From IMG/VR virus record IMGVR_UViG_3300047496_000183, positions 1-39,618 of that record: a stretch of 39,618 nucleotides of DNA, one strand, 5' to 3'. Position 1 is the first letter of the stretch. The number at the start of each line of letters is the position of its first letter. A program made the position numbers and the translations under genes. Positions 6,961 to 39,618 of the stretch are shown one piece after another. The DNA comes from a virus. The notes below the pieces were generated by a model, which saw only the letters and a program-made list of their open reading frames with translations, was not told where the DNA came from and ran no database searches.

Positions 6961-7635
6961 TTATACCGGTGTTATTGTTCCTACGCTGTAATCTACAATC
7001 CATATAGTGTTAGCTGTTGTACACACAAGGTGTATACAATCTCCTATACCCGTAGAAGTTAATGATCCACCTGTACCTACAGTTGTAGCATTTGTTCCGG
7101 TGCGAACCTGTTGACCCGCTGTTTGAGCAATCCTCCAACCACCCGCTCCACTTGGTCGAATCACTTCAATCACGTCCCCCACAGCAGATGTTGCCGGCAA
7201 AGTCAATGTTTGCAGAGCCGCTGCTGTAACTATATATCCGTTATTCACGCTCATAGTTTGGGTAGTTGCGTTATTATTCCAAGTAAACGAAGTAGATCCT
7301 GTAGCAGATATTGTTAAAGTATTACCAGATCCCGCAACAGTAATAGATCCAGAGCCTACAACATTAACATTGCCAGAAGTAGGAGAGATGGCTCCTCCGG
7401 TATTCCCGGTAATTGTTGCTACACCTGATGTAGAAATAGAAGGAGATATTTGAGACCACACTCCAGCCCCAGATGTTACGTATAAAATTTTAGTAACTGA
7501 ATTTAGCCATGTAGTATCTGGATTTTTTATATCCGTCGATGTAGGGTTTCTTTTTGCAGTTACTAAAGGGGGATTTTGATAATAATCAATCCCAACATGA
7601 CCTAATGGATTTTCAGCCAGGGAAGCTATTGACAT
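6961..7635 (-). CDS. First adhesin of the operon, with distinct N-terminus and shared C-terminal module
   Basis: The 224-residue protein begins MSIASLAENPLGHVGIDYYQ. Its N-terminal 65 residues (NPTSTDIKNPDTTWLNSVTK, then GVWSQISP) resemble short virion-attachment segments that describe an expected datum and a trailing W in many phage fibres. A Ser/Thr/Gly linker follows (GSGSITVAGSGNTLTI), then the shared module (MSVNNGYIVTAAALQTLTLP, GWRIAQTAGQQVRTG, TVGTGGSLTSTGIGD, TANTIWIVDYSVGTITPV). It is the promoter-proximal gene of the cluster, directly downstream of the TTGACA-N17-TACTTGAAA promoter at 7672-7700. A role as baseplate-proximal adaptor is possible but only inferred from its first position and unique N-terminus. 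Confidence 0.75.
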   Translation of the reverse strand: MSIASLAENPLGHVGIDYYQNPPLVTAKRNPTSTDIKNPDTTWLNSVTKILYVTSGAGVWSQISPSISTSGVATITGNTGGAISPTSGNVNVVGSGSITVAGSGNTLTISATGSTSFTWNNNATTQTMSVNNGYIVTAAALQTLTLPATSAVGDVIEVIRPSGAGGWRIAQTAGQQVRTGTNATTVGTGGSLTSTGIGDCIHLVCTTANTIWIVDYSVGTITPV

Positions 7636-7671
7636 GGATTAAACCTGAAGTTGTATTTGTCCTATTCATTT

Positions 7672-7700
7672 CAAGTAGAACTTCTGTATTTACATGTCAA
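7672..7700 (-). promoter_or_regulatory. Promoter of the adhesin operon (TTGACA-N17-TACTTG)
   Basis: On the minus strand, TTGACA (7700-7695) is followed after exactly 17 bases by TACTTGAAA (the -10-like hexamer is 7677-7672). The ATG of the first adhesin is at 7635. The same layout, with the same -35, spacer length and TACTTGAAA, precedes the capsid operon at 19151-19179. TACTTG is far from the usual TATAAT, so a modified or phage-directed polymerase may recognise it. Confidence 0.7.
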
Positions 7701-7727: not shown

Positions 7728-7780
7728 AGGAATAGCATTATTTTACCCCTAAAATTTAGACCATAAATAATGCTATTCCT
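7728..7780. repeat. 16-bp perfect inverted repeat between divergent genes
   Basis: AGGAATAGCATTATTT (7728-7743) and AAATAATGCTATTCCT (7765-7780) are perfect reverse complements around a 21-base spacer. The repeat lies between the adhesin operon (minus) and the DUF29 gene (plus). It is just upstream of the adhesin promoter and immediately next to a TATAAT box on the plus strand. That position suits a shared operator. A terminator is less likely because no T-run follows on either strand. Confidence 0.8.
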
Positions 7781-7832: not shown

Positions 7833-8294
7833 ATGAGTACAGAACTATACAGACAAGATCTTTGTGAATGGTGTGATCTTCAAATAAATCTAATGAAAAC
7901 TAGGCAATTTGAAAATTTGGATATTGAAAATTTGATAGAGGAAATACAAGACTTGGGCGATTCGAGAGCTAGTGAATTAGAAAGCTGTTTATGTGTGTTG
8001 TTTATGCATCTTCTTAAATGGAAATACCAACAACATCTCAGGAGTAAATCTTGGATATCCACTATCCGTGAACATGCTAGACGAGTACAAAAAAGACTTA
8101 AAAAAACTCCTAGTCTTAAACATCGTCTTTTAGAATTAGCAGAAAGTGCTTATGAAGATGCTCGTTGGGATGCTCATAAAGAAACTGAAATAGAGGAGTC
8201 AATATTTCCTTTGATAAATCCATTTAACATTTCAGAAGTATTGACTACTGACTGGTTAGAAAAGTGGAAAACACATCAAGACAACCTCCTATAG
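7833..8294 (+). CDS. DUF29 family protein
   Basis: This 153-residue protein matches the DUF29 pattern along its whole length. It has YRQDLCEWCDLQINLMKTRQ, NLDIENLIEEIQDLG, RASELESCLCVLFMHLLKW, then SKSWISTIREHARRVQKRL and AYEDARWDA. DUF29 proteins are small helical proteins of unknown function, commonest in cyanobacteria and some other Gram-negative bacteria; a copy in a phage is unusual and suggests capture from a host. A good ribosome binding site (AAGGAG) precedes the ATG by 8 bases. It is a lone plus-strand gene in a minus-strand region, with its own upstream TATAAT and inverted repeat. Its last 19 bases overlap the convergent KTSC-domain gene. The biochemical role is unknown. Confidence 0.85.
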   Translation: MSTELYRQDLCEWCDLQINLMKTRQFENLDIENLIEEIQDLGDSRASELESCLCVLFMHLLKWKYQQHLRSKSWISTIREHARRVQKRLKKTPSLKHRLLELAESAYEDARWDAHKETEIEESIFPLINPFNISEVLTTDWLEKWKTHQDNLL

Positions 8295-9780: not shown

Positions 9781-10928
9781 TATCTCTTCCTCGATAGTCT
9801 CTTGTTAAAAAATTGCATTCCAAATAAATCCCCCAATATATCAGTAGCAGTAGGGGTAAATGATATCTCTTGATTTTGTCTGTCTGAAAGGACAACGCCC
9901 CTTTTCTCTACCAATTCTTGTATCTTATTCAATATATTTTCTGAGTCATAACCCTTTTTTCTTAATTCAAAGGCGATTGAACCAATACTATCTTGTGGAG
10001 TGAGTCTATCCAAAATTTGTCCTGCAATTTCTGAATCACTACTTTTTGTTTTTTTCACATATTGCTGTAGAAAATCTACTCCTTGGGGAGCTTTTCCGTA
10101 TCGAAGCGATTTTATATATTCTGATTCTGGTTCAGATAATCCATAGACCCAATTCTTAGCATTGTTTCTAGATAAACCCTGATTATTAGCCAATAGATTT
10201 ACGGCCATCTCGGGCATGCCAAGTTTTTTTAATTCATCAACAGATTTATTTAATGATCTATAAGAAGAGTCTGTATTTATCGCCTTATTTAAAAAACCAA
10301 CTTTCTTTCTAAGAGGAGAACTAATCTTGCTTAAATTATTTACTTTGTCTTCCCATTCTTTTAATACTGTTTGTTCATCCTGTCCAGATCTAACTCTATC
10401 TAGAACATTGTTTTCCATCTGTTGTAAATATTCACCAGGCAAAGACTGGTAGGTTTGGGCATCTTGATTAGTCTGTAAAACAGTGTTTATTCTGTTTCTT
10501 AATGATTGCACTGCTCCTTCTGCTGTACTATTTCTATCATTAGCAAGTGCATAAGCTGATTGTAAATCTGATGCAGCTCCAGACATTAAAAACTTCTTAG
10601 CCTCTCTGTCCCTCCAATTTCCTTCAGGAGCGTTGTTAGAGGAAGAGTCTCCTTGTGTGGGTTGTTTTAAGGAGTTTTGATTTCCTCCTAAAGCTCCAAT
10701 AAGTCGATCTCTTTCTAATAATCTAGTCACACTAGGTCCAATTACTTCAGGAGGTAAAAATTTAGAAGCCTTAGCTATTTTTTCATAATCTGGACCTAAT
10801 TCTTTTAAATTTTGAGATAATCTATACCTTTCTACCTCTTTAGGAAGCTGCTCGCTCAAACCTTGAGCCATTCCCTGACCCAACTGCGTCCCCATGTCCC
10901 CTAATTGAGGAATAACTTGTAAGCCCAT
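9780..10928 (-). CDS. Putative internal virion / DNA-ejection protein, helical
   Basis: The 382-residue product is mostly charged and helical. A Gly/Gln-rich start (MGLQVIPQLGDMGTQLGQGM) leads to long helices with no Cys and no recognisable enzyme motif. It sits in a row of three genes (11551 to 8974) between the tail proteins and the adhesin cluster, the place where podoviruses keep ejection or internal core proteins. The TAATG overlap with the following gene suggests production in a fixed ratio. The family is not recognised; the function is inferred from position and composition. Confidence 0.6.
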   Translation of the reverse strand: MGLQVIPQLGDMGTQLGQGMAQGLSEQLPKEVERYRLSQNLKELGPDYEKIAKASKFLPPEVIGPSVTRLLERDRLIGALGGNQNSLKQPTQGDSSSNNAPEGNWRDREAKKFLMSGAASDLQSAYALANDRNSTAEGAVQSLRNRINTVLQTNQDAQTYQSLPGEYLQQMENNVLDRVRSGQDEQTVLKEWEDKVNNLSKISSPLRKKVGFLNKAINTDSSYRSLNKSVDELKKLGMPEMAVNLLANNQGLSRNNAKNWVYGLSEPESEYIKSLRYGKAPQGVDFLQQYVKKTKSSDSEIAGQILDRLTPQDSIGSIAFELRKKGYDSENILNKIQELVEKRGVVLSDRQNQEISFTPTATDILGDLFGMQFFNKRLSRKR

Positions 10929-18063: not shown

Positions 18064-19032
18064 TTAAGAAGTTGTAACGTTTAATCCGGAGATCCAGTTT
18101 TGATTCGTAATCGCCCGAGCAAGCGCAAACTTGGCGTACATCTGAGCGTTTTGAGCCACACTAGAAACCACCCAATCGGGTCTCATCCCTACGCGAGCTG
18201 TGTAGGTGTTCTGTTCGACCTTGGTAAACGCTTCTAGGCCATACATAGGAATCCGGTAGATTGGATTGCCTAGTGTAGAAACCGTTGGAGCTATAATCCC
18301 TTTAGAAGATACAAAGCACCTAAAACGGGAAATGGAGCAGTATTCCTCAGGTCTTAACCCCTCTTGTTGTGGGTAAGCATTCTTGAGGATCACTCCTTGT
18401 ACGTTCTGTAGATCTGTAGTGACATTGGTGTGAGCGAGAGCTATGAATGCATCTCGGGTCGGTGATGTCGCAAACTTATCCATCGCGTCCACACTTTCCA
18501 GCATGGTTCGCGCGTCGTTTCCTAAAAGGATGCGCTCGATGTTGTTGCAATCCGCACGGGATATATTAGTTGGAGAATCTCCGTTATTTCCTCCATAAGC
18601 ATTAAGGTACGATGGGCTAGAAGCCAGAAGATCTCTCATTAGTAGATCTTCCTTTTCCCGAAGCCACTGACCTAAGAGCGCAATAAACTTCGTCATGACT
18701 TTGTCATTTTCGAAGAGTGTGACCTGCTCGTTTACGACCACAGTCTTGGCGTAAAGTTCGGTAGTTGCGTCTACGTCTGTACGGACAGGAATTTCAGGAG
18801 CCGGATCTATACCCGATCCATCTAGTTGACCACCATCTGTGTTGAGTCTTTCATAGCGACTCATACGAGTCGTTTTTCCCAGGTGAGCCTGAGCAGTATG
18901 TAAATCCGCTCCAAATGAATGGATCAGGTTAAACATTGGGGTTGACAATAGATCCTCACTCCACTGCAAAGGAAGCTCGGGGGACATATTGAAAATATTG
19001 GTGATGCCTGTAGAGGCAGTAACAGTTGACAT
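18064..19032 (-). CDS. Major capsid protein (N4 gp56 / P22 coat type)
   Basis: The 322-residue protein has the pattern of the N4 gp56-like branch of HK97-fold coats. It begins MSTVTASTGITNIFNMSPEL, followed by FGADLHTAQAHLGKTTRMSR. The segment TELYAKTVVVNEQVTLFEND is followed by a helix carrying LLGQWLREKEDLLMRDLLAS. Later come DAFIALAHTNVTTDLQNVQG and a C-terminal region with YGLEAFTKVEQNTYTARVGM. The order scaffold, capsid, decoration, adaptor, tail tube matches a podovirus head module. The gene has its own TTGACA-N17-TACTTGAAA promoter and a 5' leader of about 110 bases, fitting high expression. Confidence 0.82.
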   Translation of the reverse strand: MSTVTASTGITNIFNMSPELPLQWSEDLLSTPMFNLIHSFGADLHTAQAHLGKTTRMSRYERLNTDGGQLDGSGIDPAPEIPVRTDVDATTELYAKTVVVNEQVTLFENDKVMTKFIALLGQWLREKEDLLMRDLLASSPSYLNAYGGNNGDSPTNISRADCNNIERILLGNDARTMLESVDAMDKFATSPTRDAFIALAHTNVTTDLQNVQGVILKNAYPQQEGLRPEEYCSISRFRCFVSSKGIIAPTVSTLGNPIYRIPMYGLEAFTKVEQNTYTARVGMRPDWVVSSVAQNAQMYAKFALARAITNQNWISGLNVTTS

Positions 19033-19086
19033 GGGCGTTCTCTCAGTTCTGTATTTATCTGGTTGCGAAGCAGATAACGCGAACGG

Positions 19087-19109
19087 AGAGCGATCCCGTG
19101 TAACGCTCT
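19087..19109 (-). promoter_or_regulatory. Hairpin in the capsid mRNA leader
   Basis: AGAGCG (19087-19092) and CGCTCT (19104-19109) can form a 6-bp stem with an 11-base loop in the untranslated leader between the promoter (19151-19179) and the capsid ATG (19032). Leader hairpins often stabilise abundant late mRNAs; that role is inferred here. Confidence 0.4.
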
Positions 19110-19150
19110 AGGGAATTAGAAAAACAAAGTGTTTCGTTCTTCTATTTTTT

Positions 19151-19179
19151 CAAGTAAGGTATACTGTTTGAATTGTCAA
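19151..19179 (-). promoter_or_regulatory. Promoter of the capsid operon (TTGACA-N17-TACTTG)
   Basis: On the minus strand TTGACA (19179-19174) is followed after 17 bases by TACTTGAAA (the -10-like hexamer is 19156-19151). This is the same architecture as the adhesin promoter at 7672-7700. The plus-strand gene for the sigma-like protein starts at 19200. A plus-strand TTGTCA (19173-19178) overlaps this -35 element, so the two transcription units may be controlled together. Confidence 0.7.
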
Positions 19180-25690: not shown

Positions 25691-25762
25691 TTACACCACA
25701 GAATGGATATTATCAGACGTTGAAGAACGTAAGTGTTTGATAAATGTCCTAATTTTGTTCAT

Positions 25763-25771
25763 TTTCAAGTA
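25763..25771 (-). promoter_or_regulatory. TACTTGAAA element upstream of the helicase operon
   Basis: The minus strand reads TACTTGAAAATGAAC here, 73 bases upstream of the helicase ATG. The capsid and adhesin promoters carry the same TACTTGAAA. The -35 position at 17-bp spacing (25794-25789) reads TGGTAT, a poor match to TTGACA. If active, this may be a weaker or activator-dependent member of the class. The rest of the 25691-25903 gap shows no gene. Confidence 0.45.
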
Positions 25772-32769: not shown

Positions 32770-32950
32770 GCATTCCTCTTGTTTGGTTCTTTAAATTTAA
32801 TTACCACTTTGCTATCTTTTTGGTTCACAATTTTTTTAAACTTAGTCATGATCAAGATCAGATTTTGGAAAAATGTAAAGTATAATACATGTTGCATATT
32901 TAACGCAACTTTTAACATAATATCACTGTAAAAACTAGGGAAATAAGCAC
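32770..32950. promoter_or_regulatory. Divergent control region between RecT and the XRE regulator
   Basis: This 181-base AT-rich gap separates the two major divergent transcription units. A perfect TATAAT (32881-32886) faces the XRE gene. Just after it lies the inverted repeat GTTGC-N9-GCAAC (32891-32909), a likely operator for the XRE protein because it would cover the transcription start. No confident -35 or minus-strand promoter for RecT can be picked by eye. An early promoter region or an origin are both possible. Confidence 0.55.
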
Positions 32951-33187
32951 ATGAGAAATCCAGTACTCGAATACATGCGAAAAAAAGGAATCACCATCAA
33001 TAAACTCAGTATAGTTTCTAGAGTTACTAGACCAACCCTTTATGACCTGATAAAGGGTAACAGAAGAGCAAACTGGGGAACTCTTTTGAAGCTTTCCAAT
33101 GCTACCAATGGAGAACTTGCTGCTACTGATATTGAAAACTGGATGAACCAAAACGATCAGCTAAAGACATCAAGAAGCATCCACTAG
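32951..33187 (+). CDS. XRE/Cro-type helix-turn-helix regulator
   Basis: The 78-residue protein has a Cro/CI-type fold. LEYMRKKGITINKLSIVSRV and TRPTLYDLIKGNRRANWGTL give the helix-turn-helix, followed by LKLSNATNGELAATDIENWM. The ATNGEL phrase is typical of phage Cro-like proteins that sense copy of their own operator. AGGGA lies about 9 bases upstream of the ATG. As the first gene right of the divergent control region it probably regulates both directions. No CI-type repressor with a cleavable C-terminus is present. Confidence 0.85.
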   Translation: MRNPVLEYMRKKGITINKLSIVSRVTRPTLYDLIKGNRRANWGTLLKLSNATNGELAATDIENWMNQNDQLKTSRSIH

Positions 33188-35050: not shown

Positions 35051-35632
35051 ATGTCTCAAGTAAACACATCTAGTACATCATCTTCATCCCTTCCGATTAC
35101 TATTAACGCTGGATCTGGAATTTCGGTAACTGGAAGTCCTGTAAGTCCAGGAGGAAGCGTTACAATATCTGCTACAGGATCTACTTCAACGGCAGCTTAT
35201 TTTGAATCACATCTATCTAACAACATAACATATACCGTTGGTGCAATTTTAGTTGCCTGTGATGTAATTGATAGCAATACAATGTCTTTTTACGATGCTA
35301 CAACTTTTACTGCTACTGCACCTGTATCGGGATTTTATGTATTTTCTGCTAATATTGCATTTAGTCTGATACCTAGTCCAGAAACAGCTATTGAGCTTAG
35401 AAATATAACATCAGGAATCAACCGTAGAACCAATGTTTTTTATCCTGTATCAACAGGAGGAACAGGAGTAAATTATGCTACAAGTTGTTGTTGGATGCTG
35501 TCTTTAAATGCAGGTGATCAAATACAAGTTTATTATTTAAATCCAGGATTCTCTCCTACTGCTCAAGTAATTGCTGAAGGAGCCGGTGGAAGTACTTATT
35601 TTACTTCATTTTCTGGATCACTATTAGCATAA
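35051..35632 (+). CDS. C1q-like trimeric adhesin
   Basis: The 193-residue protein starts with a Ser/Thr-rich shaft (GSGISVTGSPVSPGGSVTIS). Residues 55-190 look like a C1q/TNF jelly roll (TYTVGAILVACDVIDSNTMS, FTATAPVSGFYVFSANIAF, WMLSLNAGDQIQVYYLNPGF, YFTSFSGSLLA). Phage proteins of this kind trimerise and bind host surfaces. It is the only adhesin-like gene on the plus strand and lacks the C-terminal module shared by the minus-strand cassettes. The C1q-like region inside the 3210-5036 protein is its closest relative in this genome. Confidence 0.75.
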   Translation: MSQVNTSSTSSSSLPITINAGSGISVTGSPVSPGGSVTISATGSTSTAAYFESHLSNNITYTVGAILVACDVIDSNTMSFYDATTFTATAPVSGFYVFSANIAFSLIPSPETAIELRNITSGINRRTNVFYPVSTGGTGVNYATSCCWMLSLNAGDQIQVYYLNPGFSPTAQVIAEGAGGSTYFTSFSGSLLA

Positions 35633-39450: not shown

Positions 39451-39618
39451 CTAATTAATGGGAACCACTGCGGAAAAAGAGAATCCAAGTTGGGCATTCG
39501 AGAGGTTATAAAACCCGGCTCCAAATCCCCCCACCATTGTCAATGGTACTAGTAAATCTGTTCCGTTATCGCCTGAAATCGTCATTTGTAAATTCGTTGA
39601 ATTATAGGAAAACATTGA
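39451..39618 (-). CDS. Join-spanning tail/adhesin accessory protein, 3' part
   Basis: This is the end of the gene that starts at 463 and crosses the circular join. Bases 39618-39492 repeat the part already seen at 127-1, and 39491-39451 add the last residues (AQLGFSFSAVVPIN with TAG stop). A different frame over this region would give an upstream extension of the 38943-39443 gene, but the join-spanning frame explains the bases better. Confidence 0.75.
   Translation of the reverse strand, partial: SMFSYNSTNLQMTISGDNGTDLLVPLTMVGGFGAGFYNLSNAQLGFSFSAVVPIN
39492..39618. repeat. Terminal direct repeat, right copy (circular contig join)
   Basis: Identical to 1-127. The unique genome therefore ends at 39491 and continues at base 1. 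Confidence 0.95.

Follow-up and report, generated by a model that had tools for sequence, protein, structure and literature searches.

The timing of phage structural genes is generally ascribed to transcription. Control through the mRNA leader itself is known from T4 gene 32, where a single pseudoknot is bound by the gene's own product and governs the translation of an abundant phage protein. Switches that sequester the Shine-Dalgarno (SD) sequence, among them riboswitch platforms, ribosomal-protein leaders and RNA thermometers, gate the ribosome-binding site through mutually exclusive helices. Leader RNAs can also act on the polymerase, and the put RNA of HK022, around 70 nt in length and with two stem-loops, binds the zinc-binding domain of the RNAP beta' subunit and suppresses termination, its putL form lying just past the PL promoter (PMC9378689).

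The locus considered here lies in a virus record (IMG/VR record IMGVR_UViG_3300047496_000183), the 39,618 bases of which, analysed as a whole, are called the window. An identical 127-bp direct repeat at its ends (1-127 and 39492-39618) is consistent with a complete genome, circular or circularly permuted. The gene set is that of a tailed phage, with a terminase, a portal of the PHROG 156 family, a major head protein and tail-fibre-like genes, together with RecE/RecT, a replication initiator and a helicase; no tRNA was found in the window. Two operons are at issue, and their first genes are as follows.

18064..19032, minus strand: gene for the major capsid protein (MCP), first in the structural operon, matching the PHROG major head protein at E 1e-10.
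6961..7635, minus strand: first gene of the adhesin/tail-fibre operon, with the N-terminal motif NPLG..G....QNPP...A.R.PT..DI.

A first scan of viral contigs gave 15 relatives of the MCP, at 70-79% identity over the best segment, and a second gave 244, of which the best 80 were retained, with identities of up to 81%. The MCP has no match by tblastn among 50,697 reference phage records, and so no annotated host is at hand; two MCP matches in a genome collection were left unused for host assignment, both being MAG contigs of unrelated phyla. The relative L014 has its MCP gene split at about 10415-10700 by an intron-like insert with stop codons, the MCP frame resuming downstream. The N-terminal motif of the 6961-7635 product is common to the genes that follow second copies of the leader element in relatives, and the gene has a weak match, under the Pfam cut-off, to the adhesin family DUF2807. 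A perfect 26-bp inverted repeat has one arm within this gene (7289-7314) and the other 27.8 kb away (35162-35187) within the ORF 35051-35632, which has a weak C1q-like match; a shared adhesin segment or a recombination site are both possible. Elsewhere in the window a divergent early region at 32850-32950 carries the palindrome GTTGCGTTAAATATGCAAC and sigma70-like promoters on both strands, and sits beside a Cro/CI-type HTH gene (32951-33187), an arrangement as in a temperate switch.

The reading we favour, and consider likely from the comparison of sequences, is that the two operons are served by sigma70-type promoters, and that in the clade of relatives the RNAs so made open with a cis-acting pseudoknot element that switches capsid and adhesin translation. 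Computation across the relatives shows, at this comparative level, where the promoter sits, that hairpins follow it, that their loops covary with their linkers, that the SD region is complementary to the second repeat and that the arrangement recurs at both operons.

Some 70 of the uncultured relatives have an MCP leader in which hairpins with UCGYN loops follow one another in tandem, two or three to a leader. The repeated unit consists of a linker, NRY-N-G(A/U), followed after a few bases by a hairpin with the 7-base loop YUCGYNA, the NRY of the linker being complementary, in reverse, to the GYN of the loop. When all units from 72 MCP and nine adhesin leaders were taken and the linker was picked blind to the loop sequence, three Watson-Crick linker-loop pairs were found in 117 of 155 units (20,000 loop shuffles averaged 33 and never exceeded 52), with the covarying pair types G-C, A-U, U-A, C-G; G-C, A-U; and C-G, U-A; about a quarter of the detected units lack at least one of these pairs. 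In 60 of 73 cases the loop is matched by the linker upstream of it, as against 15 of 73 for the linker that comes next, and so the pairing is local and of the H-type. The covariation between UCGYN loops and linkers thus indicates a putative array of tandem pseudoknots, each of 3-bp H-type. This architecture shares with the T4 gene 32 leader a pseudoknot in a phage mRNA leader, and differs in its two or three tandem units and in the SD-antisense copy described below.

The hairpins themselves are also conserved as pairs. RNAalifold run on a MAFFT alignment gave a weak consensus, and the structure was therefore set by hand from the units and then tested on the alignment. With a model of 21 pairs on 23 aligned sequences, 18 of the 21 pairs have changed on both sides, and the covariation score of 0.564 compares with 0.219 when shuffled (reached in 0 of 500) and with 0.079 or less when the partners are slid by one to three columns. 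Mapped on the MCP tree, both sides of the unit 2 pair have changed some 11-12 times and both sides of the unit 3 pair 10 times, with about 11 and 10 of the changes coordinated. These numbers of independent changes are approximate, since good support is confined to a few of the branches concerned (2-3 pairs per test). A covariance model built from the clade's leader element (R1) matches either MCP leaders or second sites, and those second sites that were inspected lie before the adhesin operon. Scans with the hairpin-pair pattern outside the MCP context returned mostly chance matches in coding sequence, with an MCP directly downstream at six loci.

No family of Rfam release 15 (4,227 families) reaches its gathering threshold in the window, and in nine relatives searched at E<=1 no Rfam match falls at the leader, a sub-threshold Termite-leu match in L195 lying outside it. 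The literature searched on phage capsid-leader RNAs, in which the 2017 survey of 224 motifs was covered by way of its Rfam models, yielded nothing equivalent, and on these two grounds the leader element is taken as previously undescribed. A separate Rfam match, to int-alpA RNA, occurs in L181 at 174-237 (42.8 bits, E 1.4e-5), outside the leader, and may be a clue to the host or to a temperate lifestyle.

The ribosome-binding region provides the second line of evidence. In each leader the 32 nt that precede the MCP ATG complement that leader's own unit 2, with a mean duplex energy of -11.5 kcal/mol, compared with -8.9 +/- 0.26 kcal/mol when leaders are exchanged (z = -9.9 for the real pairing). 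The segment from -62 to -36, which overlaps unit 3 and a side of unit 2, also scores (z -8.6); unit 1 and upstream control segments give no significant complementarity to the ribosome-binding region in MCP leaders. With folding energies computed pseudoknot-free, the predicted energy needed to open the SD region averages 11.8 kcal/mol, as against 5.35 at 261 other SD-bearing gene starts of the same genomes (p 1e-25), and it falls to 5.4 with unit 2 masked and stays at 11.9 with unit 1 masked. By the pairing and the masking together, unit 2 can form either its own pseudoknot or a helix that sequesters the SD, and each of these structures excludes the other. The SD thus pairs with an upstream segment that also joins an alternative conserved fold, and from these predicted folds the leader has what appears to be the architecture of a translational switch. 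The exclusive helices that gate a ribosome-binding site are shared with the SD-sequestering switches already known; what differs here is that the SD region is the antisense of the middle repeat, within a tandem pseudoknot array, on a phage capsid mRNA. Five variant MCP leaders (L189, L202, L206, L208 and L209) carry a AAAGAGCCTACGCCTCTTTAACGTAAG-like middle unit, which can pair with an SD region of the form CTTAC...AAAGAGG over up to about 15 bases.

A two-unit version of the element lies directly ahead of the first adhesin/tail-fibre gene in nine of 18 relatives (G003, G010, G011, G013, G014, G015, G016, G019 and G023), these copies having been found by inspection of the second sites of the covariance model and from their position after a KTSC-domain gene. 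The complementarity of the SD region to unit 2 is replicated independently on the nine adhesin leaders (fraction 0.0003), and again unit 1 and upstream segments are not significant against the SD region in these nine. Each copy is preceded by the same promoter motif as the MCP leaders, 110-141 nt before the start, with a mean score of 13.7 against 0.7 in shuffles. The relatives thus link capsid and adhesin operons by promoter and RNA element, and these are the same two operons that are linked by the promoter motif in the window.

The main rival to a translational role is one in transcription, in which the hairpins would bind RNA polymerase or an antiterminator in a put- or nut-like manner for the benefit of long late operons. 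The element begins near the predicted transcript start of two long operons, as tandem hairpins with conserved loops behind sigma70-type promoters, and short tandem stem-loops in a phage leader directly past a promoter are what HK022 put also presents (PMC9378689). However put belongs to early operons, where it acts on RNA polymerase, and the parts of that source drawn on here (PMC9378689) describe for it no conserved pairing between a loop and a linker upstream, whereas the present elements sit on capsid and adhesin operons and have loop-linker pseudoknots and a conserved SD-pairing helix. The match between SD region and unit 2, which holds within each leader, would be left unexplained, and we regard this role as unlikely. 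Somewhat less probable again is that the promoter alone matters and that the leader is a stabilising or RNase III-processed 5' end of the mRNA, with the SD helix as the processing site. The units do begin at the predicted 5' end of the transcript, and the duplex of unit 2 with the SD can reach 15-25 bp in some leaders, but stability alone would need neither a conserved loop sequence nor linker-loop covariation, and the duplex covers the SD specifically. A translational switch, which accounts for the tracking of unit 2 by the SD region, remains the preferred reading of the clade's leaders.

In the window itself the element is degenerate. The features of its MCP leader, in transcript order, are as follows.

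19033..19144, minus strand: predicted MCP 5' leader RNA, its start placed from the promoter, about 7 nt past the -10.
19117..19144, minus strand: hairpin of 12 bp with which the transcript is predicted to begin, from the minimum-energy structure.
19083..19107, minus strand: degenerate pseudoknot unit, linker AGC plus hairpin ACGGG[AUCGCUC]UCCGU, read from the sequence as the equivalent of the relatives' units.
19081..19090, minus strand: anti-SD segment CUCUCCGUUC, on the 3' side of the first TCGC hairpin.
19055..19077, minus strand: degenerate last unit, hairpin UUAUCUG[CUUCGCAAC]CAGAUAA with a UUCGCAA loop, its linker-loop pairing not clear.
19040..19049, minus strand: ribosome-binding region GAACUGAGAG, sequestered by the anti-SD segment in the predicted fold.

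The AGC linker of the unit at 19107-19083 is complementary to GCU of its loop. In the minimum-energy fold 19090-19081 pairs with 19049-19040 at nine of ten bases, and opening of the SD is predicted to cost 13.9 kcal/mol. The R1 model does not detect the window's leader, giving with filters off a 5.0-bit local match to the last unit only, and so the evidence for the element here consists of its homologous position, its two UCGC loops and the SD helix. From these the window's capsid leader is read as a degenerate member of the family, in which the promoter, two UCGC-loop hairpins and a predicted SD-sequestering helix are kept. Before the adhesin operon the window has a leader of about 35 nt without units, and only the promoter is kept. 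Statements on the element are accordingly strongest for the clade and weaker for the window phage.

The promoters were what a sequence-only reading of the window had singled out, in the form of a TTGACA hexamer followed after 17 bases by a common sequence, TACTTGAAA, before the capsid and adhesin operons, with a third copy of the latter before the helicase.

19174..19179, minus strand: site A, -35 hexamer TTGACA of the MCP promoter, exact motif, ranked 3rd of 79,166 positions by the family motif.
19151..19156, minus strand: site A, -10 hexamer TACTTG, then AAA (TACTTGAAA to 19148), aligning with the relatives' TAnnnT-GAA.
7695..7700, minus strand: site B, -35 hexamer TTGACA of the adhesin-operon promoter, ranked 4th of 79,166, its score tied with that of site A.
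7672..7677, minus strand: site B, -10 hexamer TACTTG (TACTTGAAA to 7669), from the exact motif and the family-motif score.
25763..25771, minus strand: site C, the third TACTTGAAA, without a -35.

The exact TTGACA-N17-TACTTGAAA pair occurs exactly twice in the window, both times on the minus strand (19179-19148 and 7700-7669); the end points 19151 and 7672 given earlier are the ends of the TACTTG hexamer, the full TACTTGAAA being TACTTG plus AAA. All three sites do lie in divergent intergenic gaps, as proposed, bounded by the genes at 19032(-)/19200(+), 7635(-)/7833(+) and 25690(-)/25904(+). TAGGACA shortly downstream of TACTTGAAA is common to sites B and C (7654-7677 and 25740-25771). Beside site B, between the divergent genes, a 14-bp inverted repeat GGAATAGCATTATT...AATAATGCTATTCC (7729-7742 and 7766-7779) adjoins a TATAAT ahead of the plus-strand gene 7833-8294 and is operator- or attenuator-like.

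An EM motif search in 72 MCP upstream regions gave the family motif TTG(a)(a/c)(a)-N17-TAnnn(T)-GA, with 16.4 bits of information where shuffled controls reached 8.4-8.8; most of its sites lie 141-157 nt upstream of the MCP ATG. The search of relatives' capsid genes that had been suggested as a check does find an equivalent promoter at the same distance from the ATG, the -10 of site A and the relatives' TAnnnT-GAA lying equally at about -120. Scored on the two hexamers of this motif, sites A and B come third and fourth among the window's 79,166 positions, and since the window's best full-width site in the EM run was another one, the family model owes little to site A. Because of these ranks under a motif learned from relatives, A and B are probably real promoters, and site B would be the promoter of gene 6961-7635. 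The idea of a common capsid and adhesin promoter has stood to this extent, with the same promoter type before the MCP in relatives and before the adhesin operon in nine of 18. The bare promoter pattern gave at least 118 matches in viral contigs.

At both sites a TTGACA -35 and a TAnnnT-like -10 stand 17 bp apart, within the 16-18 bp of sigma70-type promoters, and by motif A and B are sigma70-family promoters with a weak -10 that is degenerate clade-wide. They share with the bacterial sigma70 promoter the TTGACA -35, the 17-bp spacer and, in the clade, a TAnnnT -10; they differ in that the clade's -10 is weakly conserved and in that TACTTG in the window keeps only T1 and A2 of TATAAT, T6 being lost.

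That TACTTGAAA might instead define a phage-specific late promoter class, read by a phage factor and including the helicase site, was the sequence-only reading's own suggestion. Two exact copies at identical spacing speak for it, as does the count of the 9-mer in the window, four against 0.71 expected (four being attained in one of 300 shuffles). However, in the relatives positions 3-5 of the -10 vary freely, position 6 is mostly T and only TA...T is conserved, and a conserved -10 class based on TACTTGAAA is rejected for that reason. The third copy is present upstream of the helicase as claimed but has TGGTAT in place of TTGACA 17 bases upstream and no promoter score, and site C is probably not a promoter of the A/B kind; a fourth copy (2937-2929) falls within a methyltransferase-like gene. 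The helicase was sought in 24 relatives with no match. Such a class is improbable, more so than either of the RNA-based alternatives above. That A and B are chance matches and no promoters at all is very improbable, for no TTGACA-N17-TACTTGAAA arose in 100 dinucleotide shuffles of the window, the post hoc event of two TTGACA sites with a common 9-mer at a spacing of 15-19 arose in one of 300 (the real window counts six, the A/B pair and five from the duplicated terminal repeat), the two sets of shuffles together ruling out a chance origin of the motif, and both sites are top-ranked by the relatives' motif ahead of operons that have such promoters in relatives.

If capsid and adhesin translation are switched in cis as we propose, RNA for the capsid operon would start from site A and that for the adhesin/tail-fibre operon from site B. 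In the clade the RNA would open with two or three tandem units of linker and hairpin, followed by a ribosome-binding region antisense to unit 2. Folding of unit 2 would leave the SD free and translation on, while a unit 2 that has opened and paired with the SD would turn translation off, and this latter form is the more stable of the two in pseudoknot-free folding. We take the pseudoknot array as the ON form, since transcription reaches it first and it leaves the SD free. The ON state may be set kinetically, the units being the first to leave the RNA polymerase, or may be held by a bound protein or ligand, and the outcome would be a timed and coordinated synthesis of capsid and adhesin. The wider view, in which widespread uncultured phages use a structured-RNA class as a joint switch for the translation of capsid and tail-fibre operons, the signal sensed being a protein, a metabolite or transcriptional timing, is one to which we give about an even chance.

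With a loop-linker rule and an antisense ribosome-binding site to work on, the model is open to direct test, and the element could tag this phage group by sequence and serve as a small genetic part. Should the leader work in the inferred way, a large group of uncultured phages would have its most abundant protein, and its host-recognition proteins too, made from mRNAs with a built-in RNA switch.
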